Part shown: piece by piece, positions 60 through 7,038 of the stretch
Numbering within the stretch: the first letter of the stretch is position 1
How the letters are laid out: each line of letters starts with the position of its first letter
Position numbers and translations under genes: made by a program
Notes under the pieces: generated by a model
Seen by the model: the letters and a program-made list of their open reading frames with translations, nothing else
Databases searched by the model: none
What the model was told of the DNA's origin: nothing
Origin: Nitrospinae bacterium RIFCSPLOWO2_12_FULL_45_22
Lineage (GTDB): Bacteria; 2-12-FULL-45-22
NCBI GenBank assembly: GCA_001803565.1
Contig: MHDQ01000234.1
Span: forward strand, 1 to 7,038
DNA: 7,038 bases
Direction of reading: 5' to 3'

Positions 60-2435
60 TTATATTGTTCCTTCTTCCTTAAGCCGAACCATTTCTTTTT
101 CCGTTAGGCCCAGCATCCCTTGATATATCTCCTGGTTGTGTTGGGCAAAGGTTGGCCCGGCCCATCTTATCTGACCGGGGGTAAGGGAAAGCTTAGGTAT
201 TACGCCAACGGTCTTAAGTCTCCTTGCCCCTGGGACTTCCATCTGTACCAGGTTATTTCTCGCTGCTATATGGGGGTCAGAAATTATATCTACAGCCGTG
301 TATAATAAGCAGGCAGGCACTTTTGCTTTATTCATGATACGCACCACTTCATCACTCGCTTTTCCGGCTACCCAGTGTCGTACCATACCTTCCAGCTCTT
401 CCTGATTCTCCCGCCGTCCTTTTGCGTCCTGGAAGCGCTGGTCTATCAGGAGGCCTTCCCGGCCTATGGCCTTAGCTAAGCCGGCAAAGGCGTTATCATT
501 TGGGACAACGATAGTTACCCAGCGGCCATCTTTAGTCTGATAGTTATCCCCGGGTACGCAACCGGGATGGCGGTTTCCTTGCCGCCCGCGTACTATACCG
601 AGCTTATCATATTGAGGAATGGTGGATTCCTGGATCCTTAGGACCGATTCATATAAGGGAGCATCTACTACCTGTCCCTGGTTACCACCTTGAGCATCGC
701 GCCAGTACAAGGCCAGCATGGTACCAAAGGCATTAAAGACACCGGTCAGCCAATCACAAGCCGCCAACCCTACCCGCAACGGTGGTCCTTCCGGGTAACC
801 GGTGAGATGCATCAGTCCACTAAAGGCCAGGCCAATGCGGTCAAAGCCCGGCTGCGAGCTATAAGGGCCATCCTGACCATAGCCAGAAACCCTGACCATG
901 ACTATCCCCGGGTTGATCTGCCTCAGGGTTTCAAAGCCCAAACCCCATTTCTCAAAGGTACCGGGACGGAAATTCTCTGTCACCACCTCTGCTTGGCGGG
1001 TAAGTTCCTTGAAGAGCCTTTGCCCCTCGGGCTTGCGCAGGTCTAACGAGATAGCCCTTTTATTCCGGTGCAAATCAGCCCAGAATAAAGATTGGTCGTT
1101 CACCAGGGGTGGGATGCGACGCACGGACTCACCCTGGCCCGGTATTTCTATCTTGATAACTTCTGCGCCAAACTCGGATAGTAAGGTAGGACCGAAGGGG
1201 CCGGCACCCATTGTGGCCGGTTCCAAAATGCGGATTCCTGCCAGAGCATTTGCCGGGATAGGGCTCATAGTTTTTGGAGGCGTTCTAAGTTCGCGGAGTT
1301 TTGTCGAGAGTATTTCAGGGTTATGGTGCCCCAAGGGTGGCCCTGCCCAGTCTACCTTTCCAGCAGTATGACTGAGCCGTGGCACTACATTCACCATCTT
1401 AACCTGATCACCAGTCAGATCCCTTGCCTCAATAATATTCTCTCTGGCTTGGACATGTTGGTCTTTAAAGACCATCGCCACATCATATACCGCATTAACC
1501 GGGACCTGGGCCTGGTTCAACATAGTTATTACTTGTTTTTGGGTTAAACCTCTGACCCACTCCCTTACCATAGCCTCTATTACTAGACCATTCTCTACCC
1601 GCTTGGGCCCAGTGGTAAACCTGGGGTCATGCGCTAGCTCTTCTCGCCCCATCGCCTTAGCCAACCGGGCAAATATAACATCTGAGACCGTGGTTAAGAC
1701 TACCCACCGGTCATCCCTGGTGAGATAACAATCTCCCGGGGCCACCGACTGGGGTAAGGTATTACCGGTTCGCTCACGGATTATCCCCAGCGTATCATAG
1801 GCAGAAACAGTATATTCCGATATGCGCAAGATAGCTTCATACAAGGCCAGATCAATCCACTGCCCCCTACCTCCCCGGGTATCCCGCCAGAAAAGGGCTA
1901 TAAGAGATGCCAGGGAACCTAAGGCCCCGGTTAAATAATGGGCATATGCTACACCGCAGCTTACGGGTGGTAAATCTGGTGTACCGGTGACGTAAGTCAA
2001 GCCACCCATGGCCTGGGCGATCCGGTCTTCCCCTGCCAGGTCTTTATAGGGACCGGATTGACCAAAGGGTGAGACCCGTAGCAAGACCAGGCCAGGATTT
2101 TCCGCCTCAAGACCCTCATAGGACATGCCTAGCGCTTCCAATCCGCCCGGTCCTAAATCCTCTATCAGCAGGTCGGTCCCTCGGATCAGGTCTACCACGA
2201 CTTTTCGCTCTTGTTGCTTTTGCAGGTCAATAGCCAGGGATTTTTTATTCCTGGCCTCTACTGCCCATAGCAGAGAGGAGTGATTATAAAAAGGTGGAAC
2301 CTGCCGTAAGGGATGGCCATTTGGCTCCTCTACCAGGATTACCTCTGCGCCAAAATCTGCTAACAAAACCCCAGCGAAAGAACCTGCCAAAGTACGGCTC
2401 AATTCTATAACTCTTAATCCTTCCAGTGGTCTCAT
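60..2435 (-). CDS. Tandem (double-domain) class III CoA-transferase, CaiB/BaiF family
   Basis: The protein belongs to the class III acyl-CoA transferases (CaiB/BaiF, formyl-CoA transferase type), which move CoA between carboxylic acids in the cytoplasm. Normal members are about 400 residues. This one is 791 residues and contains two complete, mutually similar copies, roughly residues 1-385 and 398-791, joined by a short Pro-rich linker. Both copies open with the family pattern (LEGLRVIEL; LAGIRILEP, then a DFGAEVI or EFGAEVI block) and both carry the GxGQ and LYE blocks. The expected catalytic Asp (Asp169 in formyl-CoA transferase) is present in the second copy as D561 (CDWLTG), but the first copy has H166 (AHYLTG). 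By inference only the second half can form the aspartyl-CoA thioester. Single-chain double CaiB proteins are known, for example DMSP lyase DddD, so the fusion is credible. The ATG follows GGGAGGT by 8 nt and lies 24 nt after the crotonase stop, which suggests one operon. The substrate is unknown. Confidence 0.92.
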   Translation of the reverse strand: MRPLEGLRVIELSRTLAGSFAGVLLADFGAEVILVEEPNGHPLRQVPPFYNHSSLLWAVEARNKKSLAIDLQKQQERKVVVDLIRGTDLLIEDLGPGGLEALGMSYEGLEAENPGLVLLRVSPFGQSGPYKDLAGEDRIAQAMGGLTYVTGTPDLPPVSCGVAYAHYLTGALGSLASLIALFWRDTRGGRGQWIDLALYEAILRISEYTVSAYDTLGIIRERTGNTLPQSVAPGDCYLTRDDRWVVLTTVSDVIFARLAKAMGREELAHDPRFTTGPKRVENGLVIEAMVREWVRGLTQKQVITMLNQAQVPVNAVYDVAMVFKDQHVQARENIIEARDLTGDQVKMVNVVPRLSHTAGKVDWAGPPLGHHNPEILSTKLRELRTPPKTMSPIPANALAGIRILEPATMGAGPFGPTLLSEFGAEVIKIEIPGQGESVRRIPPLVNDQSLFWADLHRNKRAISLDLRKPEGQRLFKELTRQAEVVTENFRPGTFEKWGLGFETLRQINPGIVMVRVSGYGQDGPYSSQPGFDRIGLAFSGLMHLTGYPEGPPLRVGLAACDWLTGVFNAFGTMLALYWRDAQGGNQGQVVDAPLYESVLRIQESTIPQYDKLGIVRGRQGNRHPGCVPGDNYQTKDGRWVTIVVPNDNAFAGLAKAIGREGLLIDQRFQDAKGRRENQEELEGMVRHWVAGKASDEVVRIMNKAKVPACLLYTAVDIISDPHIAARNNLVQMEVPGARRLKTVGVIPKLSLTPGQIRWAGPTFAQHNQEIYQGMLGLTEKEMVRLKEEGTI

Positions 2436-2459: not shown

Positions 2460-2959
2460 CTATCTACCTCGGAATACCGGCTTTCGTTTCTCCAGAAAGG
2501 CACTTACCCCTTCTTTCTGGTCTTCGGTAGCCATAAGGTAGAGCATAACGTCCAGGGAATGTTTATACTCCTCACCACCCAAAAAGCGATTTACTGAGGC
2601 CTTGTAGACCCGCAGGGCAAGGGGGGCAACGCTCATCAACTTTCCGGCCAATTCCATACAGTTGTCCATCAGTTGTTCATGAGGCACAACTTTATTAATC
2701 AGTCCAATCCGTAAAGCCTCCTGGGCAGAGATAGGGTCACCGGTCATGATCATCTCTTTGGCCCTGGCCATACCTACTACTTGATGGAGACGAATAATAA
2801 GGAAGCCGGGTAATAGACCCACTTTGATCTCTGGCCCGCCAAAGGTAGCCCTATCTGAGGCAATGATCATATCACAGGCCAGGGCCAGCTCACAACCCCC
2901 GCCGAATGCCAAACCGTTTCATCTTCTCCCTTCGCCTCCTTCTTTGTAGTTATTGTCAT
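2460..2959 (-). pseudogene. Enoyl-CoA hydratase/isomerase (crotonase) broken by an internal deletion and frameshift
   Basis: The 3' part (2912 to 2460) encodes a clear crotonase C-terminal region of 150 residues; intact members have about 260. Counting from a TTG at 2912, it keeps the block GGGCE with E8 and the PEI block with E28. Their 20-residue spacing matches the paired catalytic Glu144/Glu164 of rat enoyl-CoA hydratase. The C-terminus ends in the usual EKRKPVFRGR. Reading upstream in that frame, the family residues N and G precede the TTG, but a TGA codon lies immediately before them (2919-2921). In another frame, an ATG at 2959 with an excellent AAGGAGG starts MTITTKKEAKGEDETV, which could be the real N-terminus, then reads nonsense to a TGA at 2867-2869. 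About 90 codons, including the oxyanion-hole A/G(x)D region, are therefore missing, with a frame change. The LPGFLIIRL stretch also departs from the usual PGxGGTQRL and appears one residue shorter. Translation from TTG 2912 is possible but has no good ribosome binding site, and the product should not be functional. An assembly error is an alternative. Confidence 0.75.
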
Positions 2960-2965
2960 TTTGTT

Positions 2966-2972
2966 CCTCCTT
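2966..2972 (-). promoter_or_regulatory. Ribosome binding site of the original crotonase start
   Basis: AAGGAGG on the minus strand lies 6 nt before the ATG at 2957-2959. It is the only strong site in the neighbourhood. It shows that translation of the crotonase gene originally began here and not at the internal TTG at 2912, which supports the reading of the locus as a gene with its middle removed. Confidence 0.65.
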
Positions 2973-3053
2973 GCAATAGTGCACGTCCTAAAAAAGTTAA
3001 TATCTGATGGGCTGTAATTGCTTTTATCGTTCACTAAATAGCCTTAGACATAG

Positions 3054-5024
3054 CTAGCCAGGAAGAGATGCGCGAGAGATGATCTCATCATAGCGCTGAT
3101 CTATCTCAGCCTGGATCAGGGTGACCTGATCTGGACTGAGGTGAGAGAAGCGGCCTTGCTCGGAGAGATACTCTTCCACCGGTTTTCTTTCTTTAACCAA
3201 CTTGGTTATCCTCCGTTGGCCATTTTCATATTCATATAGGACGGTGAACCCGGTCTCTACCGCCAGCCGGGCTAGCTCGACGGTCAGATGAGTATCATAC
3301 TCCCAACCCGTGGGGCAGGGGGCCAAAACATGGATAAAGGCAGGCTTGCCTGATTCTCTGGCCCTTCGGGCCTTTCTGATCAAGTCGTGGGGATAGGCAA
3401 TAGAGCCGGTAGCGGCGTACACGTCTCCATGGGCCTCTATTATCTTCATGATGTCCTTCTTACGCTCCTGTTTACCACCCGGGGTAGTCTTGGTCTTGCT
3501 AAATAGGGGGGTAGCTCCGCTTCGCTGCACCCCAGTATTCATATAAGCTTCATTATCATAGCACATATATACTACCTGGTGTCCTCTCTCTAATGCCGCT
3601 GATAGGGTCTGTAACCCAATATCAAAGATCCCTCCATCTCCGCCATAGAGAAAGATATCCATCTCCTTGTTCTTCTTTCTAAGACCCACCTCCACACCGC
3701 TTATCGCCCCACCGGCATGGCTGAAGGTAAACATCGTATAGGGGACCTTCCAGGCCGTGAGGGGGAATATAGCCATGGCCCCCAGGCAGCCGGCATTCAT
3801 AGATACGACAGTATCCTTACCAAAGACGCTGGAAACGACACGAACCGCAATCAAACCACCGCAGCCAGGACAAAAGGGATTACCCCGGCACAGGAGGGGT
3901 TCACCTTCTTTGACCAGTTCTCTAGCAACTTGTTCCCCTTCAGTTAATTTCTTGAAATTATGATAGCCACTTATTTTCTGGTTAGTCTCTCTGAAATTCA
4001 GGTTATACCAGCGGGGAAATTCCTCTTCTTCTTCCCAGGCCACATCCACCAGTTTTTCTATATCGGTCTGGAAGATATCCCTACTCCCTATGATAAAATT
4101 AGAGACCAGTGCCCCGGTCCGGCGCAAAGCGAAACCTACCTCAATATACAATATCCCCTCGCTACCGGGAGAACAGGCCCGGTCTAAAACCAATACCTTT
4201 TTGGTATGGGACAAGGCCTGCTTGATATCTTCTTCCGGGAAGGGTCGGAAACACCTTATCTTCAATAAACCGATCTTCACCCCTCTTTTCCGGTAGGCAT
4301 CAACCGCCTCTCTACAGATCCCTACCACCGCCCCCATGGCTACTAATACTAATTCAGCGTCATCGACCCTATATGACTCGATAAGTCCATTGCCATAAGA
4401 CCGGCCAAACATCTGACTATATTCATCATGGGCTTCTCTTATCACCCCCCTGGCATTTTGCATGGCTATATATTGCTGATACTTGGCCTCGGGATAATCA
4501 GAAAAGGTGCCACAGCCCTGAGATATGGGATACCCTGGATCGATAAAACCATGTTTTGGTTGGTATGCGGGGAGGAAAAGGTCTACCTTTTCTGCCGGTG
4601 GTACATCAACCAATTCATAGGTATGGGAGATCCTGAACCCCTCCAGTACTACAAAGGCCGGCAGCAGGACTTTTTCATTCTCACAGATCTTGTAAGCCAT
4701 GATAATAGAATCCAGGGCCTCTTGAGAGTCTTCGCAATAGAATTGGAGAAAGCTGGCATCCCTCTCTGAAAGACTATCGGAGAAGTCGGCATCGAAAGTC
4801 TGAGGCGAGCCGATCGCCCGGCTGGTATCCGCTACTACCATAGGTAAGGCCATGCCGGAGGCCATCCATAGGACCTCCTTGGCCAGGGCTATACCCTGGG
4901 CACAGGTACAGGTGAAGGTCCGGCAACCCGCGGCGGCGGCCCCGGCACAGATATTAACAGCTCCCAGCTCCGACTCGGCATTGACCGATTCAGCATCGAG
5001 CTCCCCCCGTTCAATAAGTTTCAT
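3054..5024 (-). CDS. 2-oxoacid:ferredoxin oxidoreductase, fused alpha and beta subunits, N-terminus missing
   Basis: This is the catalytic core of a pyruvate- or other 2-oxoacid:ferredoxin oxidoreductase, a cytoplasmic thiamine-diphosphate, Fe-S enzyme converting 2-oxoacid and CoA to acyl-CoA, CO2 and reduced ferredoxin. Residues 1 to about 345 are PorA-like: E19 in ESELGA matches the ThDP-contacting Glu64 of Desulfovibrio africanus PFOR, followed by the SQG-like AQG block and GSRDI near the end. Residues about 373-656 are a complete PorB-like part. It has the cluster cysteines C385, C388, C413 and C570 (CPGC, NAGC, APCPTGW) and a ThDP motif from GDG (462-464) to N491 (YDNEAYMNTG). The linker has no internal Met, so alpha and beta are one chain, unlike the usual separate subunits. 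The alpha part starts too late. The reading frame stays open upstream of the ATG and spells further alpha-like residues (EYVLVLEAL), but the preceding family segment with the YPITP motif (Thr31 in D. africanus) is absent. No good ribosome binding site precedes this ATG. Which 2-oxoacid is used cannot be told. Confidence 0.87.
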   Translation of the reverse strand: MKLIERGELDAESVNAESELGAVNICAGAAAAGCRTFTCTCAQGIALAKEVLWMASGMALPMVVADTSRAIGSPQTFDADFSDSLSERDASFLQFYCEDSQEALDSIIMAYKICENEKVLLPAFVVLEGFRISHTYELVDVPPAEKVDLFLPAYQPKHGFIDPGYPISQGCGTFSDYPEAKYQQYIAMQNARGVIREAHDEYSQMFGRSYGNGLIESYRVDDAELVLVAMGAVVGICREAVDAYRKRGVKIGLLKIRCFRPFPEEDIKQALSHTKKVLVLDRACSPGSEGILYIEVGFALRRTGALVSNFIIGSRDIFQTDIEKLVDVAWEEEEEFPRWYNLNFRETNQKISGYHNFKKLTEGEQVARELVKEGEPLLCRGNPFCPGCGGLIAVRVVSSVFGKDTVVSMNAGCLGAMAIFPLTAWKVPYTMFTFSHAGGAISGVEVGLRKKNKEMDIFLYGGDGGIFDIGLQTLSAALERGHQVVYMCYDNEAYMNTGVQRSGATPLFSKTKTTPGGKQERKKDIMKIIEAHGDVYAATGSIAYPHDLIRKARRARESGKPAFIHVLAPCPTGWEYDTHLTVELARLAVETGFTVLYEYENGQRRITKLVKERKPVEEYLSEQGRFSHLSPDQVTLIQAEIDQRYDEIISRASLPG

Positions 5025-5051
5025 AAGCGCTTCTAATACCAGTACATATTC
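5025..5051 (-). other. Apparent deletion junction between gamma and alpha subunit genes
   Basis: In the alpha frame these nine codons read EYVLVLEAL, which continues naturally into MKLIERGELDAE and resembles the helix that follows YPITPQ in alpha subunits. The same bases up to 5033 also encode the last residues (MYWY) and stop codon of the gamma gene in another frame. Gamma proteins normally continue for roughly 25-35 more residues, so both neighbours seem to be cut at this point. The exact breakpoint is somewhere around 5045-5065 and cannot be fixed without an intact relative. Confidence 0.6.
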
Positions 5052-5503
5052 CTTACCCCTTTTTCGATCGACTCCAGACTGACCAGTCCGGTGACGGCTG
5101 CAAAGGCCCCGAGCATTACGGTATTAGTTATTGGTGTACCCAACTTTTCTAGGGCGATGGTCGTCGCATCTACATAACTGGCCTGGTGCTCGAAATTCAG
5201 AGATTTATCAGAATTGGCGATAATTACCCCGTGCTTCCCTAATCCAGCCTCCAGATCCACGCCCCCAACCAGGGTTGGATCTAACAGGACCACATAATCA
5301 GGGTCCATAATAAATCCCCGCTCTCTTATAGGCTTATCACCTATCCGGGCATATCCTTCAATGGGTGTCCCGCGCCGGTCCCAGGTTTGCGCTTGAGAGG
5401 ACTGGCCATACTTTTTATCGTATGTGGCAGCCATGGCAATCATATGGGCAAAAGTGACCGCTCCCTGCCCACCCCGGCCATGAATCCTTATCTTGGTTAT
5501 CAT
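5033..5503 (-). CDS. 2-oxoacid:ferredoxin oxidoreductase gamma subunit, probably C-terminally shortened
   Basis: The 156-residue product matches the PorG-type gamma domain of 2-oxoacid:ferredoxin oxidoreductases, which binds CoA or helps assemble the complex. The signature GRGGQGAVT sits at residues 9-17, DRRGTP at 42-47 (family ERRGAP), DPDYVVLLDPTL follows, and the late NTVMLGA...TGLVSLESIE block is present. Typical members have about 180-195 residues. Here the family pattern ends at IEKGVR and is followed by NMYWY and a stop, so the C-terminal tail is missing. The ATG follows AAGGAG by 7 nt and is the first gene of the leftward unit, about 67 nt from a predicted transcription start. The stop lies 8 nt before the alpha-beta ATG. 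The delta subunit with two [4Fe-4S] clusters that usually lies between gamma and alpha is not found in the window. Confidence 0.87.
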   Translation of the reverse strand: MITKIRIHGRGGQGAVTFAHMIAMAATYDKKYGQSSQAQTWDRRGTPIEGYARIGDKPIRERGFIMDPDYVVLLDPTLVGGVDLEAGLGKHGVIIANSDKSLNFEHQASYVDATTIALEKLGTPITNTVMLGAFAAVTGLVSLESIEKGVRNMYWY

Positions 5504-5738: not shown

Positions 5739-6821
5739 ATGGCGGAAATGAAGACTTTTTCTCAGGATCTAAGGACACCGAAAGAAGCCGATGACCTATT
5801 CTTTACCTATTGTTCTGCCACCAGGCGGAAGGCAGCCGAGGAGTGTGTCCCTTATCATATGGATATCGAGATTAATAACCGTTGCACGGGTGGATGCCGC
5901 TTTTGTTTTAACAGCTCCAATCCCCAAGGTGATATGTATATCCCCAAGGAAAAGATCTTCCAGTTGATAGATGAGGGGTATCAGTTGGGGGCCAGGCAGA
6001 TCCTCTGGAACGGCGGAGAACCTCTGTTCCATCCCGATTTTTTCGAGATTACCGAATATGCTGGTGAGAAGGGGATGAAGTGTGCCTTCTTTACCAGTGG
6101 TATCCCGGTGACTAAGAAGATCGCCCGGAGGTTAGTGGGTACCCCTAATCTCCAGGCCATGGCTATAAATATTGATGCCTTTGACCAGGCTATCTTCAAC
6201 CAGCTCCATACTAAACCCGGTGCCTTGAAGCGGAAAATAGAGGCTATCCATAACATGCTGGATGCGGGCATGCCCCCCAGCCGCCTCCTCCCCTCCATCT
6301 GCCTCACCAAGCCCTCTTGTGAGACCATTGAGGAGACTGTGGACCGTTATGTAGATGAATTTGGGGCCAGGATGGTCTATTATTTTACCTTTATTCCATC
6401 CGGTTACGGGATGGACAATAAGCCATGGGAACCATCCCTATCCCAGATAAAGAAGGCTTGCGAGTACCGGGCGCAGCGTACCAGTCCCCACTGGCTACGG
6501 ATCGGTCCCCTGGATTGCAATGTGACCCATTGCCGGATAAAGATATATATTACCTATTGGGGAGATGTGTTGCCTTGCAATTTCCTGACCCATCTCTCAG
6601 CCGGTAGTATCTACGAAAAGAGCCTGATAGATATCCACGAGTCTAACCGTGAATGGCTCCATTTCAAGAATTTTGAGATCAAGGGTAAGTGTGGGCAGTG
6701 TGAGAATAATGATGTCTGCTTCGGCTGCCGGGGAAAGGCCTACTGGTATCTGGGAGACGAGCACCTCTCTGACCCGAAGTGCTGGATGAACCCGGAGGCC
6801 AAAGAATACTATTGCCAATAA
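5739..6821 (+). CDS. Radical SAM protein with C-terminal SPASM domain
   Basis: The 360-residue protein has the radical SAM cluster motif C49-x3-C53-x2-C56 (CTGGCRFC) and the SAM-binding GGEP at 92-95, so it should cleave S-adenosylmethionine to a 5'-deoxyadenosyl radical. The C-terminal part fits the SPASM pattern for two auxiliary [4Fe-4S] clusters: C265-x9-G275-x4-C280, then C318-x2-C321-x5-C327-x2-C330, then C348. C260 and C359 are additional cysteines. SPASM enzymes include sulfatase-maturating enzymes, peptide-modifying enzymes and the AhbD/NirJ haem-pathway proteins; nothing visible here chooses among them. Length is normal and no part is missing. The ATG follows GAGGAGGT at 5727-5734 with a 4-nt gap. 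It is transcribed away from the oxidoreductase genes and may be co-transcribed with the gene starting at 6970, although 148 bp with strong inverted repeats separate them. No sulfatase gene or convincing precursor peptide is in the window. Confidence 0.92.
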   Translation: MAEMKTFSQDLRTPKEADDLFFTYCSATRRKAAEECVPYHMDIEINNRCTGGCRFCFNSSNPQGDMYIPKEKIFQLIDEGYQLGARQILWNGGEPLFHPDFFEITEYAGEKGMKCAFFTSGIPVTKKIARRLVGTPNLQAMAINIDAFDQAIFNQLHTKPGALKRKIEAIHNMLDAGMPPSRLLPSICLTKPSCETIEETVDRYVDEFGARMVYYFTFIPSGYGMDNKPWEPSLSQIKKACEYRAQRTSPHWLRIGPLDCNVTHCRIKIYITYWGDVLPCNFLTHLSAGSIYEKSLIDIHESNREWLHFKNFEIKGKCGQCENNDVCFGCRGKAYWYLGDEHLSDPKCWMNPEAKEYYCQ

Positions 6822-6830
6822 GTAAGCGTT

Positions 6831-6947
6831 CAGGTATCAGCAGTCACTTTTCAGTTAAAACTAGCACTCAGGGATCGAGAAGCAGAATATGGAGATCAAC
6901 AAGCCGACCCCTATCCCTGATCCCTGAGTGTGACGGCTGAATGCCTG
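6831..6947. repeat. Nested imperfect palindrome between two rightward genes
   Basis: CACTCAGGGATC (6865-6876) and GATCCCTGAGTG (6919-6930) form a perfect 12-bp inverted repeat around a 42-nt loop. Outside it, TCAGCAGTCAC (6837-6847) pairs with GTGACGGCTGA (6930-6940) with one mismatch, and CAGG (6831-6834) with CCTG (6944-6947). The right arm also contains two tandem copies of ATCCCTG (6913-6926). No T-run follows, so it is not a standard intrinsic terminator. It could be an mRNA stability or processing structure, or one copy of a dispersed intergenic palindromic element; other copies would have to be sought in the genome. Confidence 0.6.
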
Positions 6948-6969: not shown

Positions 6970-7038
6970 ATGTCAAAGGAAAGGGAGACAAGGCCGGTTG
7001 AGGATATCTTCGATAAATATATTAGCCCGGCGAAGATG
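6970..7038 (+). CDS. Start of an unidentified gene, cut by the window end
   Basis: An ATG at 6970 is preceded by GGAGG (6958-6962) with a 7-nt gap, and the frame stays open for 23 codons to the window edge. The peptide begins MSKERETRPVEDIFDKY and continues ISPAKM. The charged start and the FDKYISPAKM stretch faintly recall the N-terminal segment of class III (PLP-dependent) aminotransferases, but 23 residues are far too few to assign a family. It follows the radical SAM gene in the same direction and may belong to the same transcription unit. Confidence 0.7.
   Translation, partial: MSKERETRPVEDIFDKYISPAKM

Follow-up and report, generated by a model that had tools for sequence, protein, structure and literature searches.

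Two missing blocks in a crotonase and 2-oxoacid:ferredoxin oxidoreductase module of a Nitrospinae contig: recent decay or local misjoin

Three neighbouring metabolic genes on one contig of a fragmented Nitrospinae genome, coding for a crotonase and for the gamma and the fused alpha-beta subunits of a 2-oxoacid:ferredoxin oxidoreductase, are disrupted by two missing blocks of approximately 310-312 and 434 bases. The question raised by this locus is whether the organism itself has lost these blocks or whether they are absent from the assembled sequence only. In the present study, the window, that is, the whole stretch of DNA analysed, was the entire contig (C234, 7038 bp). The source genome comprises 3.67 Mb in 321 contigs, with a completeness of 85% and a contamination of 1.3%. 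The genes on the minus strand were found in the order gamma subunit, fused alpha-beta, crotonase and double CoA-transferase III, and the plus strand carried a radical SAM/SPASM gene. The features bearing on the question are collected in Table 1.

Table 1. Positions of the genes, remnants and joins in the window (L040 and L041, intact operons of two relatives; C192 and C216, other contigs of the same genome)
Feature	Position	Strand	Details
Double CoA-transferase family III gene, intact	60..2435	-	Two CoA_transf_3 domains; next gene, same direction
Crotonase 3' remnant, last ~150-151 codons, from Gly-Leu-Ala-Phe-Gly-Gly-Gly	2460..2915	-	ECH_1 99-250 of 251
Stretch near-identical to the end of C216	2461..2724	-	Last 264 bp, 98.9%
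Retained crotonase start ATGAAACGGTTTG and join 1	2910..2922	-	12/13 bases identical to the C192 crotonase start
Truncated alpha (from codon ~32) fused to complete beta	3054..5045	-	Annotated start 5024; POR_N, PFOR_II, TPP_enzyme_C
Join 2, gamma codon 153 to alpha	5043..5047	-	434 bp absent vs L040 and L041
Gamma subunit without its last ~25 codons	5033..5503	-	POR positions 1-153 of 173; L040 gamma 1-152 of 177

Two joins in the minus-strand genes

The first-pass annotation had described, in the crotonase and between gamma and alpha, a missing block accompanied by a frame change, with the frames of 656 and 791 codons free of stops. Profile matches and alignment to full-length relatives confirmed both joins, and the two frames were indeed clean, as was the rest of the window. 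For the oxidoreductase, the relatives were two Deltaproteobacteria MAGs, SURF_34 (QZJR01000087.1, L040) and CSMAG_2901 (JAUXFK010000106.1, L041), which have the gene order of the window at 61-64% identity and carry intact operons with a gamma of 177 codons, a delta of 89 codons and an alpha-beta fusion of 693-696 codons. No operon ortholog above 64% identity was found. The alpha-beta fusion is shared by the window and both relatives (696 and 693 aa in the two relatives), and the 656-aa frame of the window consists of a truncated alpha and a whole beta. The double CoA-transferase of 791 aa is likewise natural, the same layout being found in frames of 811-841 codons in this genome and in one genome of the same order. 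Since the alpha-beta and the double CoA-transferase fusions both occur intact elsewhere, we regarded them as natural and rejected them as additional deletion joins. A CoA-transferase III gene lies near the operon in all three cases; that of the relatives is single and upstream, whereas that of the window is double. In the relatives, no crotonase adjoins the operon within the stretches read. Fused or adjacent alpha-beta relatives were also observed in a Phycisphaerales MAG (L042 8001-9902, 58% identity) and a Euryarchaeota MAG (L043 8001-9959, 38% identity), a scattered distribution.

At join 2, the gamma frame of the window (156 aa) reads its last 3 codons from alpha DNA, and the fused frame aligns to residues 32-695 of the alpha-beta protein of L040. 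Both alignments end at position 5045. Between the matching points lie 433 bp in L040 and in L041, and the two matches overlap by one base in the window; therefore, 434 bp are missing, and the frame changes because 434 mod 3 = 2. The block takes in the end of gamma, the entire delta (the ferredoxin subunit) and the first part of alpha with the YPITP motif. In both relatives, the gene between gamma and alpha codes for the delta subunit, which has two 4Fe-4S motifs; the window has no space for it. Similarly, the alpha-start motif AYPITPN was present in both relatives and absent from the window, and the POR_N match in the window began at profile position 29, or at 22 when the whole genome was searched. 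The beta subunit with its TPP-binding domain was present (TPP_enzyme_C, residues 421-566). The threonine of YPITP binds the substrate carboxylate, and the Sulfolobus enzyme cannot do without the residues of the motif (PMC5020499). With both the delta subunit and the YPITP motif gone, the oxidoreductase remnant should not work; activity as an enzyme of the four-subunit type is very unlikely.

At join 1, the frame 2460-2912(-) aligned to the ECH_1 profile solely from the profile position given in Table 1 onward, and its alignment to full-length crotonases began at their residue ~107. The native start was kept at 2922-2910(-). On C192, the crotonase starts with ATGAAGCGGTTTG, followed by AC, and the protein reads MKRFDKVNYE. 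A match of at least 12 of 13 bases to the start in the window was found at only 2 of the 13,996 ATG sites of the sampled contigs, one of which was the C192 crotonase start. The window therefore retains the true crotonase start; the loss after it was estimated, from an alignment with the full-length C289 paralog, at approximately 104 codons (~312 bp), with the remainder out of frame. The join point is ambiguous within 2910-2918. Residues ~5-108, including the first oxyanion-hole strand (A-G-x-D region), are missing and only one half of the fold is left; the remnant should be inactive. The native downstream part probably reads (Asn/Ser)-Gly-Leu-Ala, i.e. ..GGTTTGGCA, in which case at least GGTTTG would be common to both sides of the join, pointing to a microhomology of at least that length. 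A 16-codon reading from the upstream ATG (2959) was considered as the crotonase start and rejected on account of the true start seen on C192. At window 2912-2959, a short frame, MTITTKKEAKGEDETV, is equipped with a good site for the ribosome (AAGGAGG) and runs over the crotonase start in a different frame; if the native bases that follow were those of C192, a TGA at the crotonase start would close it, in the manner of a coupled leader. A similarly cut crotonase in another genome (L097) was discarded, as it sits at a contig end.

A second crotonase locus and other copies of the affected families

The end of the window crotonase has a near-identical counterpart at the end of C216, from which it differs at three positions inside the stretch and at the initial base of the stop codon. 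Beyond this codon the two sequences are no longer alike, and C216 continues with a gene of the 2-hydroxyglutaryl-CoA dehydratase D-component family. In turn, C192 begins with crotonase codons 1-99, oriented so as to continue C216, and thus keeps codons that are absent from the window. Both pieces are of the enoyl-CoA hydratase/isomerase type. The best non-self match of the two halves is alike, namely the C289 paralog. The window is the only place where the shared middle of the gene occurs, and C192 the only one with the 5' part, so that C192, the window middle and C216 jointly amount to about one full crotonase gene. We infer that C192 and C216 represent one locus. Its neighbours, the dehydratase gene and a DNA methylase, differ from those in the window. 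Coding ends that are 98.9% identical (window 2460-2724 and L009 6438-6702 on C216) next to unrelated flanks suggest either gene conversion or copying confined to the coding sequence. The intact version that the first-pass annotation suggested looking for in the same sample thus has partial support for the crotonase, with a second near-identical locus apparently split over the ends of C216 and C192. For the missing gamma-delta-alpha block, a search of the genome's contigs brought up no further copy of near-identical sequence.

The three affected families were then counted throughout the genome. Among the 18 matches to ECH_1, the only ones short of full length were the window copy and the two contig-end fragments (C192 start and C216 end). 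The gamma family had 15 matches, and the incomplete ones were the window copy and two at the ends of C123 and C25, which overlap by 75 identical bases and jointly form one gamma gene. For alpha domain I, the start was missing in the window copy only (14 matches). Accordingly, the copies outside the window that were complete away from contig ends numbered 15 for the crotonase, approximately 12 for the gamma subunit and 13 for alpha domain I, i.e. ~38-40 whole copies within the same genome. In addition, no internal gene split was detected among 140 aligned genes outside the window in 876 kb of sampled contigs (genes counted if aligned over at least 85% of the reference in one frame), a scan that is blind to joins of the window type (a 4-codon stub; a between-gene join) and therefore counts weakly. 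A truncation scan against references from the same-order genome was too noisy, with over-extended reference starts and domain differences, and was left unused as a rate. Amplification chimeras were also considered and rejected, as the sampled contigs held no inverted copies within one contig.

Recent decay, local misjoin and other explanations

The way in which this assembly treats gaps and overlaps bears on both joins. We counted 24 N runs in the 876 kb of sampled contigs, with lengths of 6-172 and all but one at most 70; 9 of these had a duplicated end on their flanks. The same 14-70 bases were observed on both flanks at, for example, L091 6265-6414, L154 16638, L070 16847 and L055 519. Such runs are scaffold gaps put where the contig ends really overlap. 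Exact overlaps of 13-70 bases were left unmerged, as were contig-end overlaps of 58-86 bases. Neither join carries an N. C192 ends ~30 bp short of the crotonase join of the window, and C216 ends 92 bases beyond its last difference from the window, where it looks like a branch of the assembly graph with k of ~93; the contig ends and the N runs were the sole basis for inferring k and insert size.

The very recent gene decay proposed by the first-pass annotation is consistent with these observations. It is the reading that we slightly favour, at about an even chance. According to this reading, the minus-strand operon would recently have lost two internal blocks of ~312 and 434 bp, and the joins would be real in the sampled DNA. 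Both deletions would have arisen between very short repeats and would mark the onset of decay of a dispensable module, with the crotonase loss covered by the near-identical second locus (C192...C216). That only this module was hit, whereas the ~38-40 same-family copies were whole, argues for relaxed selection on one locus over a pipeline fault. The break of C192 shortly before the join would be expected if a deleted and an intact copy shared all downstream sequence, while two intact copies would give no contig boundary at that point; the branch-like end of C216 points the same way. To skip 312 or 434 bp without leaving a mark, guided by just a few bases in common, would be out of keeping with an assembly that fills its scaffold gaps with Ns and does not join sequences even across exact overlaps of 13-70 bases. 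The bases apparently common to both sides of join 1 would also fit a deletion between short repeats. On the other hand, two medium-size deletions without any small indel or nonsense change in ~5 kb form an unusual pattern of decay, and the crotonase is a two-copy sequence, a typical failure point of short-read assembly. A graph branch at the join would, moreover, have C192 reach into the shared part, but C192 stops short of it. No related genome with the same lesions was seen, the nearest genome compared belonging to the same order only.

A local assembly error is the main rival, with a probability that we place somewhat short of even. Here, the organism's genes would be intact, and the near-identical crotonase loci would have been collapsed with their shared segments used once. 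The crotonase 5' part would have gone to C192 and the middle to the window, which was then closed over the gap, and a gap of thin coverage would have been closed likewise at gamma/alpha. The distribution of the crotonase parts fits this explanation, since the ends of C216 and C192 point towards each other, and what the two lack is roughly what the window has. The unmerged contig-end overlaps and the common, often misplaced N runs indicate a thin and imperfect assembly, and the long frames are otherwise clean. However, both joins, where no N stands, would require a departure from the usual behaviour of this assembly, in which gaps are given as Ns and short overlaps stay separate. With two intact copies, the link from the 5' part to the middle would be the best covered, yet C192 breaks exactly there. 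Same-family genes elsewhere are uncut, and two independent errors would be required within one contig.

Recent bacterial pseudogenes can form by deletion between short direct repeats. The window resembles such cases in its block losses with frame change, in the few bases shared at the crotonase join and in its clean neighbouring frames; it differs from them in having no accompanying small lesions and in that its junctions are known from assembled sequence. Returning to recent decay, a narrower and more tentative proposal, to which we give less than an even chance, is that an acyl-CoA/2-oxoacid module was caught in the first step of its loss. Two short-repeat block deletions would then have preceded any point lesions, with one gene covered by a second locus of near-identical coding sequence and unrelated flanks. 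We found nothing specific in the literature on assembly misjoins and deletion bias. Recent decay and local misjoin are both of a known kind, and either cause is ordinary and calls for no new mechanism.

The first-pass annotation had also put forward a mixed population. In such a case, two forms of one locus, intact and deleted, would occur side by side, with the consensus following the deleted one. A second crotonase version is present, which speaks for this, but it is flanked differently on both sides, indicating a separate locus instead of an allele; there was no sign of two strain alleles, and an intact gamma-delta-alpha version was missing from the genome's contigs. We therefore consider this explanation improbable. 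Systematic sequence loss throughout the assembly or consensus, to which the two joins on one 7-kb contig might have pointed, is not supported genome-wide and is highly improbable, given the complete crotonases, gamma subunits and alpha domains away from contig ends and the lack of internal splits in the 140 genes outside the window.

Annotation of the locus and further repeats

The crotonase, gamma and alpha-beta products of this contig should not be counted as functional in annotation, and metabolic reconstructions from this genome should leave out this oxidoreductase until the reads have been checked. Two clean long frames next to two block losses cannot by themselves separate decay from misassembly, and matched-family controls inside the same genome are a cheap test to exclude a systematic fault.

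Several further observations concern repeats and contig ends. The last 58 bases of the window (6981-7038) are identical to the start of C209, which holds a further stretch resembling the terminal part of the radical SAM gene and probably adjoins the window contig in the genome. The intergenic stretch at window 6814-6944 recurs at 12 or more further sites in the genome, with matches of 32-122 bp at 70-92% identity (on C6, C289, C300, C7, C19, C136, C213, C121, C66, C43, C266 and C150). It contains the inverted repeat CACTCAGGGATC ... GATCCCTGAGTG, and this dispersed repeat looks like a REP or MITE-like element. In addition, a direct repeat of 503 bp with 99.8% identity was observed on C220 (L084 4807-6000).
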